Source: Moraxella sp. (GTDB taxonomy: Bacteria > Pseudomonadota > Gammaproteobacteria > Pseudomonadales > Moraxellaceae). Taken from it: a stretch of DNA of 34,529 nt. The position numbers and the translations under genes were made by a program. Shown piece after piece: positions 4,838 through 30,346 of this stretch. Position 1 is the stretch's first letter; each line of letters starts with the position of its first letter. The DNA lies in NCBI RefSeq assembly GCF_024227015.1, contig NZ_JAAELD010000088.1, positions 1-34,529 on the forward strand. Reading direction: 5' to 3'. The notes under the pieces were generated by a model, which saw only the letters and a list, made by a program, of their open reading frames with translations, was not told the origin of the DNA and ran no database searches.

Positions 4838-7171
4838 ATGTCCCAACAAAATGTCTCAAATCAGGACAAAACACAAGATACCGCATTTCAATCTGACATT
4901 GATGCTCAGCGTTTACAATTCGAACAAAACGCCCTGCATTATCACGAACACCCTCGCCCAGGTAAGATCTCTGTCACCCCAACCAAACAAATCGCCAACC
5001 AACGCGACTTGGCTCTAGCCTACTCTCCCGGCGTTGCTGTACCATGTCTTGAAATCGAAAAAGACCCAAAACTTGCCGCCAAATACACCGCTCGCTCCAA
5101 CCTAGTTGGCGTCATCACCAATGGTACCGCCGTACTCGGTCTGGGCAACATTGGCGCACTGGCATCAAAACCTGTGATGGAAGGTAAAGGTGTACTGTTT
5201 AAGAAATTTGCAGGCATTGATGTATTCGACATCGAAATCAACGAAAACGACCCAGACAAATTCATCGAAACCGTTGCAAGCTTAGAGCCGACTTTTGGCG
5301 GTATTAACCTAGAAGACATCAAAGCACCAGAGTGCTTTAAAATTGAGCGTGAACTTCGTAGCCGCATGAACATCCCTGTGTTCCATGACGACCAACATGG
5401 CACAGCGATTATCTCGGCAGCCGCTCTGCTTAACGCCCTAAAATTAAACGGCAAAAACATCAGCGACATCACGCTGGTCTGCTCAGGCGCAGGCGCAGCA
5501 GCGATCTCATGTCTTGATCTGGCGGTAGCACTGGGCGTTCGTAAAGAAAACATCTACGTACTAGATTCAAAAGGCGTCATCACCACCAGCCGCGAGAACC
5601 TAGACGAGTCAAAACAACGCTACGCACGCGACACAGACAAGATCACCTTGGCAGAAGTCATGGTAAATGCGGACGTATTCTTAGGCCTGTCAGGTCCTGG
5701 CGTCGTCTCTCAAGACATGGTGCGTTCGATGGCCCGAGATCCGATCATCTTCGCCCTGGCCAACCCAACCCCAGAGATCATGCCAGAGCTTGCCCACGCC
5801 GTACGTTCGGACGTGATCATGGCGACAGGTCGTTCAGATTATCCAAACCAAGTAAATAACGCGCTTTGCTTCCCGTACATCTTCCGTGGTGCGCTGGATG
5901 TGGGTGCAACGGTCGTGAACGAAGAGATGAAACTTGCCTGCGTGCACGCCATCGCAGCCATGGCACACACAGAATCTACCGAGCTAGAAGATGATGGCAA
6001 ATCTGCCAAATCATTCGGTCGTGAGTATCTAATCCCTGGCCCGCTAGAGCCAAACCTAATCCTAGAGATTGCTCCTGCCGTTGCAAAAGCGGCGATGGAC
6101 ACAGGCGTTGCGACATTGCCTATCGAAGATTTCGATGCGTATCGTCAGACGCTATCTGAATTCGTCTACAACACCGCTCTTGCGATGAAGCCTGTATTCA
6201 ACAAGGCCAAACGCAATCCAAAACGCATCGTGTACGCAGAAGGCGAAGACATCAACGTACTGCGCGCTGTGCAAGTTGTGGTCGATGAGAAGATCGCTAC
6301 GCCAATTCTTGTTGGTCGCCCTGATGTTATTAAGCAAGAAATCAACGCACTTGGTCTGCGCCTGATCGACGGTGAGAACATCACCATCATCGACCCAAAC
6401 AACAACCCACGCTACGAAGAATACAGCCAGCATCACTATACCACCAACCAACGTAACGGTGTCAGCCTAGAATTGGCTCGCCGTGATGTGCGTCGTAAGA
6501 CGACATTGATCGCATCATTGATGGTAGAGCTTGGCGACGCTGACGGTCTGATCTGTGGTACGTTTGGTTTCTATCACCTACATCTAAAATACCTAAACCA
6601 AGTCATTGGCAAAAAAGAAGGTGTCAGCAACTTCTACGCGATGAGCGCCGTATTGATGCAAAACCGCAACCTATTCATCGCCGATACCTACATCAATGAC
6701 GACCCAACCGCTGAGGAGTTGGCTGAGATGACCATCTTGGCAGCCAAGAGCGTGCGTCGCTTTGGCATCACACCAAAAGTTGCCCTACTGTCACACTCAA
6801 ACTTCGGCACGTCAGACCGCGAATCTGCTGTGAAGATGCGCAAGGTTCACGACATCCTAACTCAGATGAATGTTGATTTTGAATTTGATGGTGAAATGCA
6901 CGGTGACATCGCACTAGATGAGCGCATGCGCAAGCAAAGCTATCCATTTAGCTCACTTCAAGGCTCAGCGAACCTGCTGATCCTACCGACGCTAGATGCT
7001 GCTAACATCGCTTTCAACCTTCTAAAAACTGCTACAGGCTCGGCCGCACTAGGTCCGATTCTACTGGGCGCAGACAAGCCTGTACACATTCTTACCCCAT
7101 CAGCTACCGCACGTCGTATCGTCAACATGACGGCGCTGACTGTGAACGATGTTCAAGAAATGCAAGCTTAA
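4838..7171 (+). CDS. maeB: NADP-dependent malic enzyme with C-terminal phosphotransacetylase-like domain
   Basis: 777 aa; [41 protein letters not shown]-terminal PTA-like domain ([30 protein letters not shown]). Confidence 0.96.
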
Positions 7172-7185
7172 GCAATCTCATAGAC

Positions 7186-7216
7186 AAAAGACCTTGCCAC
7201 GCAGGGTCTTTTTTTT
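7186..7216 (+). terminator. Rho-independent terminator after maeB
   Basis: AAAGACC-ttgccacgca-GGGTCTTTTTTTT. Confidence 0.85.
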
Positions 7217-7264
7217 ATGTCAAAAAAACAGTACAATCAAACAAATTTCAATGGTGATTCATCG

Positions 7265-8434
7265 ATGCAAATTTATCTGGTAGGCGGTGCGGTGCGCGAT
7301 ACCCTGTTAAACCTCCCCATTAAAGACAAGGATTTTATGGTTGTGGGTGGTTCGGTAGAGCAGATGCTGGCACAAGGCTTTGAGCAGGTGGGCGCGGATT
7401 TTCCTGTATTCTTACACCCCATCACACACGCTGAATATGCCCTAGCCCGCACCGAAAGAAAAAGCGGACACGGCTATCAAGGCTTTAGCGTAAGCACGAA
7501 TAACGTCAGTCTAGAAGACGACCTCATGCGCCGCGACCTTACCATCAATGCGATGGCGATGCCTGTGCGCTCGCTTTTTGATGACACATTGACAGGGCAG
7601 ATCGTCGATCCTTATGATGGTCAAGATGATCTTGATAAAAAAGTATTGCGCCACGTCTCGCCTGCCTTTAGTGAAGATCCGCTTAGGGTGCTTAGGGTAG
7701 CGCGGTTTTATGCGCGGTTTTATGACATGGGCTTTGTGGTGGCAGATGAGACCGCTACACTAATGCAAAGCATCGCTAGAGACGGCGAGCTCAACCATCT
7801 AAGTCGCGAACGCATTTGGAGCGAATCGGCGCGAGCCCTGGGTGAGAAGCACGGATACGCGTATTTTAAGCTGCTATTAGAGCTTGCTATTTTAAAACAC
7901 ATCTTGCCAGAGCTGTCTGACAGCCTACAAGACAAAGTGCGACGAGAATCTGCATTTAATGCGTTAAAACGCTGTCCAGATGCACCCTTGACCATCAAAT
8001 TCGCCTTACTCATGTCGGTATTTTTAGATGATCCTGATGCTTTGGACAAGCTACAACACACCACCAATCGCCTGATGACGCCCAATCACATCAAGAACTT
8101 TGCCAAGGCGTTCATCACGCATTATGACAACATTCTAAAGCTGCCAAATGTGGATGCAGATACTCTGCTGTCTTTGATCGAACAGACACGCGCGCACAAA
8201 GACGATGAAACGATACGCCTATTGATGCAGGTGGTAAATGCACTACACAAGATTAACATATCAATGGAATTCATGATAAACGCCATCAAAATCTACAATA
8301 AAATTGGCATTAATGACGTCAATCCCAACCTAAAAGGCAAGGCAATCGGTGATGAGCTGACACGCTTAAGAAAAATCCAGCTCGCAGATTATTTAGATCG
8401 GTATTTAGAAGATACGACAAGGAAGCACTCATGA
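7265..8434 (+). CDS. cca: Multifunctional CCA protein / tRNA nucleotidyltransferase
   Basis: [56 protein letters not shown]-track start 7217 lies in the upstream terminator; ATG 7265 is the conserved start. Confidence 0.95.
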
Positions 8435-16731: not shown

Positions 16732-17692
16732 ATGGCTCGCTTGGTGCTGCTTGGGCTGCTTGCAGGGTTATTTTTTAGTACGACGTTTGTACTTAACGAG
16801 CTAATGGCAAGCCAAAACGGTCATTGGTTCTGGTCGGCAAGTGGTCGCTACATCTTTATGTGGTTCATATTAAGCGCGCTCATCGCCCTAAAAGACGGCG
16901 TTAAGACCTTAGTTGGTCTTGTTGCACTGTTTACAGATCACTGGAAATTCTGGTGTGTGGCAGGCGGTATTGGCTTTGGTGGGTTTTATGCGTTTTTGTG
17001 CTTTGGTGCAGATCACGCACCCGGCTGGATCATCGCTGCGACTTTTCAGTTTACCGCTGTGGCAAGCTTGATTGTCTTGGCTGTATTTGGCGAGCGTCTA
17101 AGTAAGCGCATCATTGGCACAAGTCTGCTGATATTCACAGGTGTGCTAATTACCAACCTTGGCGAAGGACTACATCACGCCACAGGCAGCACAAGTACTT
17201 TATTACTGATGGGTACTACCTGCATTCATAGCAGGGTTTTGTTTCCCTGTGGGCAATCAGCTAGTCTGGTATAGCACTGCCAAGCCCACTCATCATAACG
17301 CATTGACCCAAGCCATCCCACACATCACATCACCACTCATGCGCAGTGCCTTAAATAAAGTATGGCTACTGACCACAGGTTCTCTGCCGCTTTGGCTCGT
17401 GCTTGGCTTGTTCATACAGCCAGATTTTCCCAGCACATCTCAAGTGTTTAATACGTTTTTGGTGGCGTTATTTGCAGGTGTGATCGCAACGAGCATTTTT
17501 CTGTTTGCGCGTTCCAAAGCCACAACCAGCGCGCAGATCGCTGCCATCGACGCCACCCAAGCAAGTGAAGTGCTGTTTGCCGTCTTGGGTGGTATGGCTC
17601 TATTGGGGACATCGGCACCGTCGCTCATCAGCATGATTGGGGTGTTGATGGTTGTGGTGGGTTTATTTGGTTTTGCCAAGATACAGGCTTAA
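16732..17692 (+). pseudogene. DMT-superfamily multidrug-efflux-like transporter interrupted by a frameshift (ORFs 16732-17274 and 17249-17692)
   Basis: Two overlapping ORFs in different frames form one ~320-aa multi-TM protein; homology switches frame near 17215-17240 (frame 2 reads ..FIAGFCFPVGNQLVWYSTAK). Confidence 0.75.
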
Positions 17693-19489: not shown

Positions 19490-19504
19490 TGTTATAGAAT
19501 AACA
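19490..19504. promoter_or_regulatory. Zur-like operator (perfect palindromic half-sites)
   Basis: TGTTATAGAATAACA: TGTTAT-N3-ATAACA, overlapping an extended -10-like TGTTATAGA, 36 nt before the SBP start codon. Confidence 0.6.
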
Positions 19505-19540
19505 TAAGCCAAATTTTTTATACTCTCACGGGATAATTTT

Positions 19541-21106
19541 ATGAAAACCACCAATTGGCTACGCCCTACAGCCCTTGTGATCGCTCTCATCAGCTTAACC
19601 GCCTGCGGTAATGAAGACAAGGCGACTACCGCCACAGACAACACCACGCCTGCCACGAGCGATAAGACACTCACAGTCGTTACCCCTTGGGAAATTACCA
19701 ATGCCGACCCCAGTACGTCAGGCTTTGTCTATCAACGTATGGGTATTGGCGAGACGCTGGTGGACGTGGACGACAAGGGAGCGATTATCCCTGCCCTAGC
19801 TGAAAAATGGGAAACAAAAGACAACGGCAAAACATGGGTGTTTACGTTGCGTGATGATGTCAAATTCCATGACGGCACGCCGATGACCGCCAAAGAAGTG
19901 GTAAACAGCCTAACGCTTGCCCTAAACAAGCCCACCGCCCTAGAAAGTGCTAATATCGAGCTTATCAAGGCAGTTGATGATAAAACGGTAGAATTCAATC
20001 TTGCCGAGCCTTTGACCACCCTACCTTCTTATTTGACACACGCCACCGCCATTATCCTAGCCCCTGCGTCTTTTGATGACAAAGGGCAAGCCACCAAAAT
20101 CATCGGCACAGGGGCGTATCGGGCGGATAAGGTTGAGCCACCACAAAAGATTGAGCAGTCCGCTTATGCCGACTATTGGGGACAAAAAGCCCACATCAAT
20201 CGCATTAACTACCTTGCCAACTCTCGCAGTGAGACCCGTACTCTGCTCGTGGAAAGTGGCGATGACCATTTGGTGTACACCCTAGACAGTGCCAGTCTAA
20301 AACGCCTACAAAACAACAGCGACCTACAAGTGGCAACCCAAACGCTCGCTCGTACCATCGCCATTAAGATGAACATCGCCAACCCGCTCTTTGCCGATAA
20401 AACCACCCGCCAAGCCCTATCTGATGCCATAGACCGTGAAGCCATTGCCAAATCGGTGCTACGCATTGGCGACGCGGGGGCGTATGAGCTACTACCGCCC
20501 ATGTTTGGCGGTTGGCAGGCAGGCGTGGCAAAATCCACTCCTAATTATCCTGCCATTAAAGCCAAGCTGCTTGCCAATGGCTTTACCGAAGGGGCAAATG
20601 GCGTGCTACAAAAAGACGGCAAGCCCTTTACCATATCGCTCATCACCTTCTCTGACCGCCCAGAGTTACCGCTTATCGCCACCGCCTTGCAAGACCAATG
20701 GCGTAAAATCGGCGTGGATTTACAAGTTAATATCACCAACTCATCAGAAATTCCCAAGGCTCATCAAGACGGCTCACTGCAAATGGCTCTGTACGCTCGT
20801 AACTACGGCAACACCCCAGACCCATTGGCTTCACTACAATCCGACCTAAGCCCACAAGGCAGCGACTGGGGCGTGATGAATTACCAAAACTCTACGCTTA
20901 CCCAAGCCTTGCATGACATCGCCACCACAGCCGATAATGTCAAGCGAGATGAACTCAAAAAACAAGTCGCCACCATTTTGGCAGATGAGCGTCCGCTTAT
21001 TCCTGTCGTGTACTACCAACAAAGTGCGTCCGCTCACAAGTCGCTACAAGGCTTGACGCTTGACCCCTTTGAGCGTAAATACAACCTAAATCAGCTTAAA
21101 TGGTAA
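19541..21106 (+). CDS. ABC transporter substrate-binding lipoprotein, NikA/DppA/OppA family (SBP_bac_5)
   Basis: Lipobox SLTAC; TLTVVTPWEITNADPSTSGF, LAEKWETKDNGKTWVFTLRDDVKFHDGTPMTAKEVVNSL. Confidence 0.92.
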   Translation: MKTTNWLRPTALVIALISLTACGNEDKATTATDNTTPATSDKTLTVVTPWEITNADPSTSGFVYQRMGIGETLVDVDDKGAIIPALAEKWETKDNGKTWVFTLRDDVKFHDGTPMTAKEVVNSLTLALNKPTALESANIELIKAVDDKTVEFNLAEPLTTLPSYLTHATAIILAPASFDDKGQATKIIGTGAYRADKVEPPQKIEQSAYADYWGQKAHINRINYLANSRSETRTLLVESGDDHLVYTLDSASLKRLQNNSDLQVATQTLARTIAIKMNIANPLFADKTTRQALSDAIDREAIAKSVLRIGDAGAYELLPPMFGGWQAGVAKSTPNYPAIKAKLLANGFTEGANGVLQKDGKPFTISLITFSDRPELPLIATALQDQWRKIGVDLQVNITNSSEIPKAHQDGSLQMALYARNYGNTPDPLASLQSDLSPQGSDWGVMNYQNSTLTQALHDIATTADNVKRDELKKQVATILADERPLIPVVYYQQSASAHKSLQGLTLDPFERKYNLNQLKW

Positions 21107-21121
21107 TACGCCATGACACCC

Positions 21122-21146
21122 AAAGAGCGACACACCATCGCTCTTT
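21122..21146. other. Intergenic hairpin between SBP and permease genes
   Basis: AAAGAGCGA-cacacca-TCGCTCTTT, perfect 9-bp stem. Confidence 0.7.
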
Positions 21147-21203
21147 GCCTTGTTTTTGACCCTCTTTTCGCTTCATGCCTAAGTTTCTGGTAACCACATC
21201 ATT

Positions 21204-22139
21204 ATGCTAAAACTACTCACATCACGGCTTATCCAACTGCTCTTGGTCGTCTGGTCGGTCGGCACTTTGACCTTTGTTCTTATGCGAAGCCTGCCCGGCG
21301 ACATGGCGTATCGTATCGCTGCGTCTCGCTATGGCTACGACCAAGTAACGGCAAGCTCTGCCGACCAAGTGCGAGCCGAACTGGGTCTTGATTTGCCATG
21401 GTATGAGCAGTATATAGCATGGTTTGGCGACCTGCTCCGCTTGGATTTGGGTAATTCGCTCGTCAGTGGGGTAAGCGTGTGGGGCGAGATAGCTCACCAG
21501 TTTGGGCACACGCTGGCGTTGGCTTTTGTCGCTTTGATTATCTCGCTCATCATCGCCCCACCGATAGGCATACTCTCTGCCCTGCGACCTAATGGGGTCT
21601 TTGACCGTTTTACCTTATTTATCGCCACACTGCTCCGCTCCGCCCCTGCCTTTATCATTGGCGTGCTACTCATCACCATTTTTGCGGTGCATTTAAAATG
21701 GCTACCTGCCATCGGCTACGGCAAGCCGATTAACTACATCCTGCCTGCTCTCACACTCGCCTTGGGTCTGTCGGCGGTGTCCATTCGGGTCAGTCGTAAT
21801 GCGGCAGTGGCGGTGCTTGATTCTACGTTTTATGAATTTGCCAAATTAAAGGGGCTAACTCCTTGGCAGGCATTTAGACGGCATGGCGTGCGTAACATTG
21901 CCATTCCCATTGTCGCCTATCATGGGGTGCAGCTCATCTATCTCATCGAAGGCGTGGTCATCGTGGAGAGCCTGTTTGCATGGCCGGGTATCGGTCACGC
22001 CCTAGTTCACGCCATCATAGCCCGAGACATTCCAATGATACAAGGCTCGGCTTTGGTCATGGGCGGGCTGTTCGTGGTGTTAAACGCCATCTTGGATGTC
22101 ATCAATCGCTACATTGACCCCCGTTATGAAGCTCACTAA
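21204..22139 (+). CDS. ABC transporter permease, DppB/NikB type
   Basis: LLVVWSVGTLTFVLMRSLPGDMA, AELGLDLPWYEQY, HGVRNIAIPIVAYHGVQLIYLIEGVVIVESLFAWPGIG. Confidence 0.92.
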   Translation: MLKLLTSRLIQLLLVVWSVGTLTFVLMRSLPGDMAYRIAASRYGYDQVTASSADQVRAELGLDLPWYEQYIAWFGDLLRLDLGNSLVSGVSVWGEIAHQFGHTLALAFVALIISLIIAPPIGILSALRPNGVFDRFTLFIATLLRSAPAFIIGVLLITIFAVHLKWLPAIGYGKPINYILPALTLALGLSAVSIRVSRNAAVAVLDSTFYEFAKLKGLTPWQAFRRHGVRNIAIPIVAYHGVQLIYLIEGVVIVESLFAWPGIGHALVHAIIARDIPMIQGSALVMGGLFVVLNAILDVINRYIDPRYEAH

Positions 22140-22184
22140 GCCCTATCAGCATTTGCCAAACCCCGTTATCAATTTGCCAATATT

Positions 22185-22985
22185 ATGATGAAATACTTAA
22201 AAAACCTAACCCCCACTCAGCTTATCGGACTTATCATCTTGGCGGCACTCCTCATCTTTGCCTATGGTAGTCCACTCGTACGCCCCCATGACATGGCACT
22301 GCAAAACCTAGATGTTATCCTATCTGCCCCCAGTGGCGAACACCCCTTTGGTACTGACCATCTAGGGCGTGATATGATGGCGCGACTGGCGTCCGCCATT
22401 CGCTTGTCTTTTTCGCTCATTGTCGGCTCAGTGGGGGTGTCGCTCATCTTTGGGCTACTGTTTGGCTTGCTGGCGGGGATTTTTGGGGGGATTTTGGATA
22501 AGTTTTTTAACTTTATCTGTGATTGTATCATGGCATTGCCTGGTTTATTGTTTATCCTACTGTTTGCGTCTATCGCCCCCAACAGTTTTTGGTCACTGTA
22601 TCTGGGCGTATCACTTGTCATGTGGGTGGAGTTTTTTAAGATGACCCGTGCGATGAGCCTAAACCTACGCAAATCAAGCGAAGTACAAGCCAGTACACTC
22701 ATGGACATGGGGCTGTGGTACATCATCAAACGCCACTATCTGCCACGGCTTGCCCCTGTCATGTGGACACTCTCGGCATTTGGGGCGGGTAATGCGGTGC
22801 TAGCCCTTGCCACGCTTGGCTTTGTCAATGTCGGTCTTAAACCACCGACCGCCGAGCTGGGTCTGATGATGACCGAACTGTTTCCTTATTATTATGAAGC
22901 GCCTTTGGTGTTCTTTTTGCCGATTATCACCGTGTTTTTACTCGTGCTTTCATTTCAATTATTATCAGGCAAACAGGACGGCTAG
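22185..22985 (+). CDS. ABC transporter permease, DppC/NikC type
   Basis: PSGEHPFGTDHLGRDMMARLASAIRLSF, RKSSEVQASTLMDMGLWYIIKRHYLPRLAPV. Confidence 0.92.
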   Translation: MMKYLKNLTPTQLIGLIILAALLIFAYGSPLVRPHDMALQNLDVILSAPSGEHPFGTDHLGRDMMARLASAIRLSFSLIVGSVGVSLIFGLLFGLLAGIFGGILDKFFNFICDCIMALPGLLFILLFASIAPNSFWSLYLGVSLVMWVEFFKMTRAMSLNLRKSSEVQASTLMDMGLWYIIKRHYLPRLAPVMWTLSAFGAGNAVLALATLGFVNVGLKPPTAELGLMMTELFPYYYEAPLVFFLPIITVFLLVLSFQLLSGKQDG

Positions 22986-22987
22986 TC

Positions 22988-24433
22988 ATGCAAAACACCC
23001 AACCATCACAAGATATTTTAATCCAAATCAATAACTTATCCGTCCACACCACAGACGGTGCTACCTTAGTTGAGCCCATTAGCCTTAGCATAAAAAAGGG
23101 GCAAAATTTGACCATCTTAGGTGAGACAGGCTCGGGCAAAAGCCTGCTTGCTCAAGCGGTCATGGGGGCATTGCCTAAGGGCTTGACAGTCAAAGGACAA
23201 ATTCTCATCAACGGCAAAACGCTCCATGACGGACAAGGCGAGCTTGATGAACATCAATTTGCCAAGCTGTGGGGGCGTGATTTGACCATGCTCCCCCAAG
23301 AGCCAGTGCGTTCGCTTGACCCCACCATGACGGTGTTTCGCCAGATTTGGGAGAGTCTGCATTTTGTCAAACGAACCGATAACTCTGCCGCCAAAGACGC
23401 CACCCTACGCACCTTAGAGCAACTCTCCTTAGCCCACGCCAAAGACTACTACCCCCATGAGCTGTCAGGGGGCATGGCACAACGTGCATCCTTTGCGTCT
23501 GCCACCGTAAGTGGGGCGTACATGGTTATCGCCGATGAACCCACAAAAGGGCTTGACCACACCAATAAAATCGCTGTCGTGGACATGCTCGCCCAAGTCG
23601 CCAAACAAGGCGGCTGCCTTTTGACCATCACGCATGACATCGAAGTCGCCAACCGTCTAAGTGGCGATAACGACCTGCTTATGGTCATGAAAAAAGGTAA
23701 GCTCTTAGAGCAAGGGCAAGCCACCGATGTCCTACAAAATCCCAAATCCGACTACGCCAAAGAGCTGATGAGTGCCAACCCTGCCACATGGACAAAGGCG
23801 GACATCACGCCTGCTGAGTCACCCCTTTTGACCTTAAAAGACGTGGCCATCAGTCGTGGCAACAAAGAGCTGTTTAGCGGGCTTAACATCACACTCCACA
23901 CAGGGCAAGCGGTGGGACTCATCGGCGATAGCGGTATCGGCAAAAGCTCACTCGGGGACGCCATTTGCGGTCTTATTACCCCGTCCAAAGGGAGTATGAC
24001 ATGGCACACCAAGCCCAAACGCCACCAAGCGCTAAAACTCTACCAAGACCCACCGTCCGCTTTCGCCCAAAACATCACGCTAGGCACGCTTATCGATGAC
24101 GTGGTCAAACGCCATAACCTTGATAAATCACAAATCGCCCCGCTCATGGAAGCCTTACAGCTCCACCCCGACCTACTACACCGTACAAGCGAGAGTGTCT
24201 CTGGGGGCGAGCTTCAACGCATTGCCATCATGCGAGCCTTGATGATGAAACCTGTGCTACTGTTTGCCGATGAAGTCACCAACCGCCTAGACCCCATTAC
24301 CCAAAAAACCACATTAGATTTACTCACGCACGCCTGTCGCACCCAAAACTGCACGCTCGTCATGGTGAGCCACGACCACGATTTGACACGGCATTATTGT
24401 GATACAGTGGTGGATTTGACGGATTATCGTTAG
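22988..24433 (+). CDS. ABC transporter ATPase with two fused nucleotide-binding domains (DppDF/NikDE-like)
   Basis: Two Walker A (GETGSGKS, GDSGIGKS), two signatures (LSGGMAQR, VSGGELQR), two Walker B (YMVIADEPTKGLD, LLFADEVTNRLD). Confidence 0.93.
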   Translation: MQNTQPSQDILIQINNLSVHTTDGATLVEPISLSIKKGQNLTILGETGSGKSLLAQAVMGALPKGLTVKGQILINGKTLHDGQGELDEHQFAKLWGRDLTMLPQEPVRSLDPTMTVFRQIWESLHFVKRTDNSAAKDATLRTLEQLSLAHAKDYYPHELSGGMAQRASFASATVSGAYMVIADEPTKGLDHTNKIAVVDMLAQVAKQGGCLLTITHDIEVANRLSGDNDLLMVMKKGKLLEQGQATDVLQNPKSDYAKELMSANPATWTKADITPAESPLLTLKDVAISRGNKELFSGLNITLHTGQAVGLIGDSGIGKSSLGDAICGLITPSKGSMTWHTKPKRHQALKLYQDPPSAFAQNITLGTLIDDVVKRHNLDKSQIAPLMEALQLHPDLLHRTSESVSGGELQRIAIMRALMMKPVLLFADEVTNRLDPITQKTTLDLLTHACRTQNCTLVMVSHDHDLTRHYCDTVVDLTDYR

Positions 24434-27248: not shown

Positions 27249-28793
27249 TCAATCAATCGGCGGGGTATAAGTGCCATTTTTAATATCATCTTTGATACGC
27301 TCGGCTTCTGCCAGCACTTGCGATAGCAGGGCTTGCACGTTTTCAAGCGTGGCGATTGGGCTTAATGTCGTCATTTTTAACGATTGCACATTTTGACGGC
27401 TATCGATCACACGAGTTACGCCAATGTTCGCTTCCCCACGGGCAAACAACTCGTCCGCCACATTTTGATTTAGGCTATCAATAAACTCATCAGGATAACC
27501 AGTTGGTACGACACGGAACAACACAGACGCAAATTGTGGCTCAACAAGCAATTCCAAACCGTCCGTATTGCGAATATAATCCGCCACCTGTTTTGTCAGA
27601 TTTACCCCGTGGTCAATCATTGAGCCGTACAGCTCTTCGCCCAACGCCTCCACCGTGAACCACAATTTTAACGCATCAAATCGGCGAGTGGTTTGCAAGG
27701 ATTTTGACACCAAGTTTGGCACGCCATGCTCTTCATCATAGGCAGAGTTTAGATACTCGGCTTCATAGTGCATAAAGCGGTAATTTTGCTCATCTTTTAG
27801 CAGGAACGCACCGCAAGAAATGCTTTGGAAATAGTGCTTATGAAAATCAAGCGTTACCGAATCGGTCAGCTCAATGCCGTCTAGCATATGGCGGTAATCG
27901 TTGGACAGTAGCAACGCCCCACCCCACGCCGCATCAACGTGTAGCCACGCTCCGAATTTGTCGCACAAGGCGCGGATTGCTTTGATGTCATCAATCGCCC
28001 CTGCGTCGGTCGTTCCTGCCGTTGCCACGACACACGCCACAATGTTGCCTTTGGCGTGCAAGTCCGCCATGATGTCGGCTAGGGCATTGGTATCCATTTG
28101 GGCGTTGTCATTGACAGGCACGGTAACCACTGATTGAAAGCCCATGCCCATCATCGCCATGTTTTTTTGTACGGAGAAATGGGCATTTTCCGAGCATAAC
28201 ACTTTGACTTTTTTCATCGCATCGTTTGGCACACCATCACGCTGCACTGACCACGCTTTGCCGTTGTCGTCTTGGTAATGTTTGCTAATCGCCCAATCAC
28301 GAGCCAACAGTACGCCCATAAGGTTGGACTGCGTACCGCCTGATGTGAACACGCCTGCCTGCCCTGCCCCATAGCCAACCTTTTGGCGTAACCAGTCAAT
28401 GAGCTGAACTTCCATAAGCGAGCCTGCTGGCGACTGATCCCATGAATCCATAGATTGGTTGGTGGCGTTAATCAGCACTTCGGCAATTTGCGATGTTACC
28501 ATGGTAGGACAGTGCAAATGAGCCAATGAATGGGGATGATGAACTTTTAAACTTTTGTTTAAAAACAGCTCCACCAACCGCTCCAACGCCTTATCCACGC
28601 CCAAGCCGTCTTTGGCAGGGTTAAAGGCGATTTGCGAGCGTAGCTCTTTAATGCTACCGCCTGTGTACATTTTGTCGTTTTGGAGCCATGCCGTTACCGC
28701 TTTGACAGCGTCCGTCATCGCACGTTCATAATCGGCGATTGATTGACTGTCATTACAAAATAAGGCTTGGCGGTGCTTGGATAGGTTTGACAT
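27249..28793 (-). CDS. ddc: L-2,4-diaminobutyrate decarboxylase (PLP-dependent group II)
   Basis: [103 protein letters not shown]. Confidence 0.92.
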
Positions 28794-28914
28794 TATTTTT
28801 TTCCTTTTGATTGGTGTTTTAAATGTTTATCATGAATGTGCATTTTGGGCGAATGTGATTCACCCCTACGCCATTGACATTTATAGCACCCAATTTTATC
28901 TTTTAAAACAAAAA

Positions 28915-28950
28915 ACCAAACCAAATCAGGCAACACCCAATCTGATTTGG
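28915..28950 (-). terminator. Terminator after dat, between dat and ddc
   Basis: On the minus strand CCAAATCAG-N12-CTGATTTGG followed by TTTGGTTTTTTG. Confidence 0.75.
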
Positions 28951-28969
28951 TCTTTTAGATTAGGGGGTG

Positions 28970-30346
28970 TTAGCCACGAACCGCTTTCACCGCTTCCCCC
29001 ACCGCCTTTTTAAAGCGAGTGATGACCTCTTCACACTCTTCACGAGTAATGGTAATCGGGCAAAGCAAACGCACCACCGTGCCGCCACGACCACCACGCT
29101 CCAATAACAGCTTATTATCAAAGCACGCTTTTTGGATAGCGACCGCAAGCTCACTGTCGGCAGGGTATGACCCCATATGGTCGGCGGATTTACGCTCGTC
29201 CACAATCTCAATACCCGTCATGAGACCACGTCCACGCACATGACCGATACAGGGGAATTCTTGTACAATTTTACGCAGTTCATCACGCAAAAACTCTCCT
29301 TGAATGCGTGAATTTTCGGCAAGGTTGTTGTTTGTGATTTGATCTAACACATTATAACCTGCCGCCATGGCTAGCTGATTGCCACGGAAAGTACCTGTAT
29401 GACCTGCTGGCGACCATGCGTCAAATTTTTTGTTAATGGCAAGCACCGCAAGGGGCAAACCACCGCCCACCGCCTTAGACATCACGACCACATCAGGGAC
29501 GATTTCGGCGTGTTCAAAGGCGAACATCTTGCCAGAGCGGGCAAAGCCTGCTTGCACTTCATCTAGGATTAGCACAATGTCATGTTTTGCAGTAACTTCA
29601 CGGATTTTTTGGAGCCATTTTTTGGGAGCAGGGACGACACCGCCTTCGCCTTGAATGGCTTCTAGGATAACGGCAGCAGGCTTGACCACGCCGCTTTCTA
29701 CGTCTTCGATGAAGTTTTCGAAATAGTAAGTCAATGCGTCCACGCCAGCTTCACCGCCAAGCCCAAGCGGACAACGGTATTCGTGCGGATACGGCATGAA
29801 CTGTACGCCCGCCATGAGATTACCGACTTTTTCTTTGGCAGACAAGTTACCTGTCATTGCAAGCGAGCCGTGCGTCATGCCGTGATAACCGCCCGAGAAT
29901 GCGATGACATTATCACGCCCTGTGTAGGTTTTGGCAAGTTTAATGGCGGCTTCTGTACCGTCCGCCCCTGTTGGACCACAAAACTGCAAGACAAAATCTT
30001 TTGGGAAAAATGACAACAATTTTTCGGTAAATGCGTCTTTAATCGGCGTGGTGATGTCAAGGGTATGCAGTGGCAAACCGCTTTCTAGCACGTCTTTAAT
30101 GGCGTTGATTGTGGCAGGGTGATTGTGTCCTAGGGCAAGTGTCCCTGCTCCTGCTAGGCAGTCAAGGTATTCGTTGCCTTCTACGTCCACCACCCAGCAA
30201 CCTTGTGCTTTGGCAATGGCTAGGGGGAGTTTGCGGGGGTAGCTACGGACATTTGACTCCATCTGGTTTTGACGAGTCAAGTAGTAGTCGTTGGTTGCAC
30301 CGTCTTTGGGAGTTACAGGGGCATGATTTACAGAATGAACGCTCAT
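28970..30346 (-). CDS. dat: Diaminobutyrate--2-oxoglutarate aminotransferase
   Basis: Class III aminotransferase; [99 protein letters not shown]; upstream of ddc. Confidence 0.93.

Follow-up and report, generated by a model that had tools for sequence, protein, structure and literature searches.

The stretch of Moraxella sp. DNA analyzed here (contig NZ_JAAELD010000088.1, 34,529 nucleotides; "the window" refers to its full length) contains an ATP-binding cassette (ABC) importer operon preceded by a predicted operator for the zinc-responsive repressor Zur. As proposed by an earlier sequence-only reading of this DNA, the operon encodes a substrate-binding protein (SBP), two permeases, and a fused ATPase. 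The four genes are intact, are on the forward strand, and are flanked by a divergent hemH gene and by metX downstream. The first gene (19541-21106) encodes a NikA/CntA-type substrate-binding lipoprotein of 521 residues with the lipobox LTAC (Pfam SBP_bac_5, 4.5e-77), which is 97% identical to the SBP of M. bovoculi. It is followed by genes for a NikB/DppB-like permease (21204-22139; Pfam BPD_transp_1; best NCBIfam match, the Opp2B nickel permease, 289 bits for a cut-off of 350), a NikC/DppC-like permease (22185-22985; best NCBIfam match, Opp2C/NikC, 163 bits for a cut-off of 300), and a 481-residue ATPase (22988-24433) resembling a NikD-NikE fusion or YejF, with two ABC_tran domains and, in each half, a Walker A motif and a signature motif. 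An SBP_bac_5 SBP, two BPD_transp_1 permeases, and ABC ATPase domains are the components of an Opp/Nik (cluster C) importer; the single two-domain ATPase stands in place of the separate NikD and NikE proteins of NikABCDE. A terminator-like hairpin (21121-21147, forward strand; 10-bp stem and T-rich tail) separates the SBP gene from that of permease 1, and hairpins of differing sequence are also present just after the SBP stop codon in Moraxella orthologues (L007-L013). This hairpin is possibly an attenuator leading to production of more SBP than permease.

Annotation by homology would label the operon as a nickel or peptide transporter, as had been anticipated. The nearest NCBIfam models are those of the nickel proteins NikA, NikB, NikC, and NikD, and every score obtained for the SBP, the permeases, and the ATPase is below the curated cut-off. 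The best match of the SBP is Opp5A_nikA (below cut-off), with 264 of the required 600 bits for nickel equivalog NF045468, 208 of 393 bits for TIGR02294, and 163.7 of 800 bits for the CntA equivalog; OppA and DppA are also among its profile matches. An AlphaFold2 model of the SBP, built on 14 sequences, had a mean predicted local distance difference test score of 85.9, with low confidence only for the first 39 residues. The closest solved folds are those of E. coli NikA, the Bacillus halodurans protein 3t66, and S. aureus NikA, with CntA next. Transfer of pocket residues from NikA or CntA was set aside, since these proteins are only ~25% identical to the SBP and the key residues were aligned ambiguously.

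The predicted Zur box, TGTTATAGAATAACA, is located at positions 19490-19504 of the forward strand. Both half-sites of the palindrome (TGTTAT-N3-ATAACA) are exact, and 36 nucleotides of the window sequence separate the end of the box from the ATG codon of the SBP gene at 19541, as reported in the sequence-only reading. The reported match to 14 of 15 positions of the Zur consensus was reproduced against TGTTATAnTATAACA provided that n is counted as a match. The box had also been described as covering an extended -10 element; TG-T-TATAGA can indeed be read inside it, but this element is not among the sites listed by the sigma-70 scan. Within the window alone the motif is unremarkable, with three sites found for 1.56 expected when two or fewer mismatches are allowed. 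A pattern search of the source genome (1.88 Mb, 409 contigs, ~90% complete) revealed three exact copies of TGTTATN3ATAACA and none of the reversed-pattern control. The second copy is located in the intergenic region between a znuA-like gene and zur-znuC, and the third immediately 5' of a gene encoding a TonB receptor with ZnuD as its best NCBIfam match (L002). The zur gene itself (L003, 970-1482; best NCBIfam match, Zur PRK11639, 105 bits, below the cut-off of 167) adjoins znuC and is divergent from the znuA-like gene. The bare motif is not specific, since other Moraxella genomes have several exact copies away from obvious zinc genes; these copies were not used as regulon evidence. Mismatch-tolerant counts in other, AT-rich genera were equal to those of the reversed-pattern controls and are uninformative. 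The case for the box beyond chance rests on the three copies in the genome, two of them at zinc genes, and on conservation. In four Moraxella genomes (L030/G010, L038/G001; L027/G004, L029/G009), an identical box-like sequence, TGTTATATTATAACA, was observed beside an integrase or PAIPAIP-repeat open reading frame (ORF); this palindrome is linked to a mobile element and not to a zinc gene.

Comparison of orthologues revealed a box with no more than one mismatch 5' of the operon in all 10 Moraxella orthologues and in all 8 orthologues from two other genera of the Moraxellaceae (SBP 52 to 58% identical), most of which have two boxes. The earlier reading had made its fate depend on this conservation, on the presence of a zur gene, and on the motif being shared with established zinc genes of the genome, all of which were found. 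Boxes with zero or one mismatch were found at none of the genes for 15 SBP paralogues of Moraxella. The M. caprae operon is located between a thiolase gene and mqo, and its box is present despite an unrelated upstream sequence. Since the SBPs of M. caprae and M. lacunata are ~97% identical across a split over which Zur is only ~76% identical, and since the M. caprae locus is different, these data are best read as horizontal movement of the operon within the genus, the box being kept or regained. Because of the conservation of the box, its copies at zinc genes, the encoded Zur, and the lack of the box at paralogues, it is nearly certain that the operon is repressed by Zur, as predicted from the DNA. 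One of the SBPs examined (L104/L125; L125 7670-9277, reverse strand) has a His-rich N-terminal stretch, HNHDGHNHDGHDHSHEQHDE, which is likely to be a metal-binding tether.

Relatives of the SBP were sought in a sample of 399 genomes of the Pseudomonadota. Sixteen genomes outside the Moraxellaceae encode an SBP at 38 to 46% identity, and a sharp gap in E value, from 1e-111 to 1e-48, separates these proteins from everything else. Together with plasmid-borne relatives, they form one clade (47 rows in the tree; support 100/99) apart from the paralogues of Bacillus, enterobacteria, and Moraxella. For each SBP gene, the best box no more than 350 nucleotides away was compared with those of the other genes of the same stretches. 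Boxes were found at the SBP gene in 7 of 7 Moraxella stretches (0 of 37 neighboring genes), 8 of 8 from other Moraxellaceae (0/58), 8 of 16 from the phylum sample (1/128), and 4 of 7 from plasmids (0/56), with Fisher p values of 1.7e-10 to 6e-5, which overstate independence because the members of the clade share ancestry. The sole match among the controls is apparently an AztB-like zinc permease gene heading an operon that includes the SBP gene. Each of the three main branches of the clade includes members with boxes.

In the Pantoea-type members (L134, L159), the operon is divergent from a gene for ZigA, which scores above the NCBIfam cut-off, and boxes are present in the region between the two. 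Two COG0523 GTPase genes are located in front of the operon in the Phyllobacterium member, with alphaproteobacterial-type boxes between them. In L157 (5001-8264, in the orientation of the SBP gene), an exact Zur box is followed by the AztB-like zinc permease gene and then by the SBP operon, so that a cluster A-I zinc permease is placed together with a NikA-like system. In three distant species (L164, L168, and L171), a TonB siderophore receptor gene (TIGR01783, above cut-off) is located directly 5' of the SBP gene in the same operon, and no gamma-type Zur box was seen at these three operons. The position of siderophore-type receptors directly upstream of the SBP gene in these clade members suggests that the cargo is a chelate.

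Taken together, the window operon quite probably encodes a Zur-repressed inner-membrane ABC importer of zinc, most likely in chelated form. Under ample zinc, Zn-loaded Zur would occupy positions 19490-19504 over the promoter and block transcription. Under zinc starvation, Zur would leave this site, and the SBP, the permeases, and the two-domain ATPase would be made alongside ZnuABC and the ZnuD receptor. The periplasmic SBP would then bind zinc, most likely together with a small chelator (as a complex with a scavenged metallophore, for instance, or with an amino acid), and deliver it to the permease, which would import it at the expense of ATP. Zur binding and repression by zinc are the firmer parts of this prediction, which is drawn from sequence; a zinc cargo, and its chelate form, are proposed less firmly, and import of zinc complexed with a small chelator is what we regard as probable for the operon. 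The zinc or zinc-chelate importer put forward in the sequence-only reading is supported by the ZigA/COG0523, zinc permease, and TonB receptor genes of relatives and by the lack of urease and NiFe hydrogenase genes described below. Several observations weigh against this interpretation. As the earlier reading had already stated, the window contains neither a gene for synthesis of a chelator of the opine or nicotianamine type nor a TonB receptor gene. No clear box was detected in the Pasteurellaceae pair (L014, L156), in L136, or in the high-GC members (L164, L168, L169, and L171). Finally, in clade member L162 (~6655-7290, in the orientation of the SBP gene), the SBP gene is divergent from nikR, and a perfect palindrome, TTAGTGTGA-N15-TCACACTAA, is located between them. 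This palindrome is NikR-like, and the regulator has apparently been swapped from Zur to NikR; the clade is therefore not uniformly zinc-linked, and close relatives may serve nickel. A search for the opine dehydrogenase domain PF10100 gave no match in 22 Moraxella genomes, but the positive controls were silent too.

Control of the operon by Zur could also be combined with a cargo other than zinc that is useful in zinc starvation, such as peptides, histidine, or nickel or cobalt as substitutes. Peptides, heme, Ni-His, and opines are ligands of SBP_bac_5 proteins, the profile matches of the SBP include OppA and DppA, and Zur regulons include genes that are not for zinc uptake (PMC6103462). This alternative is unlikely, although it deserves consideration, since the relatives of the operon adjoin ZigA/COG0523, zinc permease, and TonB siderophore receptor genes rather than peptidase genes, and since the top fold matches (NikA, 3t66, and S. 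aureus NikA) are metal-chelate SBPs. The second alternative takes the homology annotation at face value and regards the operon as a nickel importer with an incidental box. The best NCBIfam matches are to nickel proteins and one relative lies beside nikR, as described above, but no nickel model reaches its cut-off and the box is conserved and of the Zur type. Moreover, urease alpha and NiFe hydrogenase were not found in the source genome (G000) or in the other operon-bearing Moraxella genomes by searches with positive controls, whereas the two urease-bearing Moraxella genomes lack the operon. The sub-cut-off scores and the lack of these enzymes led us to reject a main role in nickel import, and we consider this alternative highly improbable. 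It is hardly credible that the palindrome is an AT-rich sequence that arose by chance or an operator for a different regulator, in spite of the exact copies at genes with no evident connection to zinc in other Moraxella and of tolerant counts equal to the controls, since the box is position specific in 18 of 18 Moraxellaceae orthologues and in distant members, is nearly absent from controls and paralogues, and is shared with znuA and zur of the source genome.

A Zur-controlled importer of the Nik/Opp type has an experimental precedent. In Paracoccus denitrificans, the "Ni/dipeptide" operon pden1341-1344 is induced 13- to 16-fold by zinc depletion, and its promoter, which has a Zur box 26 to 40 nucleotides upstream, is bound by Zur in an electrophoretic mobility shift assay; the authors, who left the substrate open, considered it "somewhat unusual" for a cluster C transporter to be regulated directly by Zur (PMC5387054). 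The window operon resembles pden1341-1344 by the gene order SBP-permease-permease-single ATPase and by a Zur box in the promoter, here predicted from sequence, and its Phyllobacterium and Pantoea relatives share the linkage to a COG0523 gene. The comparison covers gene order, promoter, and linked genes; the Paracoccus system differs by an alphaproteobacterial variant of the box, GTAATATAATAACAT, and by an operon of seven genes including the COG0523 gene. The staphylopine-metal importer CntABCDF of S. aureus belongs to the same Opp/Nik family, and the window SBP is CntA-like (25% identity, fold match). CntABCDF has a role in zinc acquisition, which is the role predicted for the window operon. 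It differs by separate CntD and CntF ATPases and by being encoded with staphylopine synthesis genes, none of which are in the Moraxella window. E. coli NikABCDE is similar in SBP fold (TM-score, 0.81 to 0.83) and permease families, but it has separate NikD and NikE proteins, is controlled by NikR, and supplies nickel for hydrogenase, and its SBP is 23% identical; in contrast, the window operon has a Zur box in a genome without NiFe hydrogenase. Zinc import under Zur control, as predicted here, is also the function of ZnuABC and AztABCD, which have a cluster A-I SBP and a permease of an unrelated family; the source genome has its separate znuA/zur-znuC locus.

Literature searches retrieved nothing on this Moraxella operon or on the clade as such, and the clade appears to be undescribed. 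In view of the Paracoccus precedent, what is new is the breadth of the clade and the mix of its partners. We tentatively suggest, as a possibility rated somewhat below even, that the window operon is one of an unnamed clade of systems present throughout the Proteobacteria, NikA-like and equipped with a two-domain ATPase, controlled mostly by Zur and sometimes by NikR, which would provide a dedicated route for uptake of scavenged zinc (or nickel) chelates not produced by the cells. Annotation pipelines would label such operons as nickel or peptide transporters, so that accessory uptake under zinc starvation would be overlooked in Moraxella and in Proteobacteria associated with plants and animals. 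Opine zincophore clusters often include importers of the dipeptide/oligopeptide type (PMC7438024), and the manner in which zinc held by pseudopaline crosses the inner membrane in P. aeruginosa is stated to be unknown (PMC10393844, PMC11481552). Inner-membrane passage of chelator-held zinc is an open question in Gram-negative bacteria, for which the clade offers candidates that are marked by their regulator, that in some species have a TonB partner, and that allow Zur members to be contrasted with NikR members.

Elsewhere in the window, a gene for a diaminobutyrate aminotransferase (above the NCBIfam cut-off) lies next to one for a pyridoxal phosphate-dependent decarboxylase resembling diaminobutyrate decarboxylase (27249-30346, reverse strand). 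This pair looks like a 1,3-diaminopropane pathway; a link between these dat and ddc genes and the importer operon was dropped, as no evidence supported it. The sequence of an EamA/DMT-like transporter is divided between ORFs 16732-17274 and 17249-17692, which are in different frames, possibly because of a frameshift or an assembly error.

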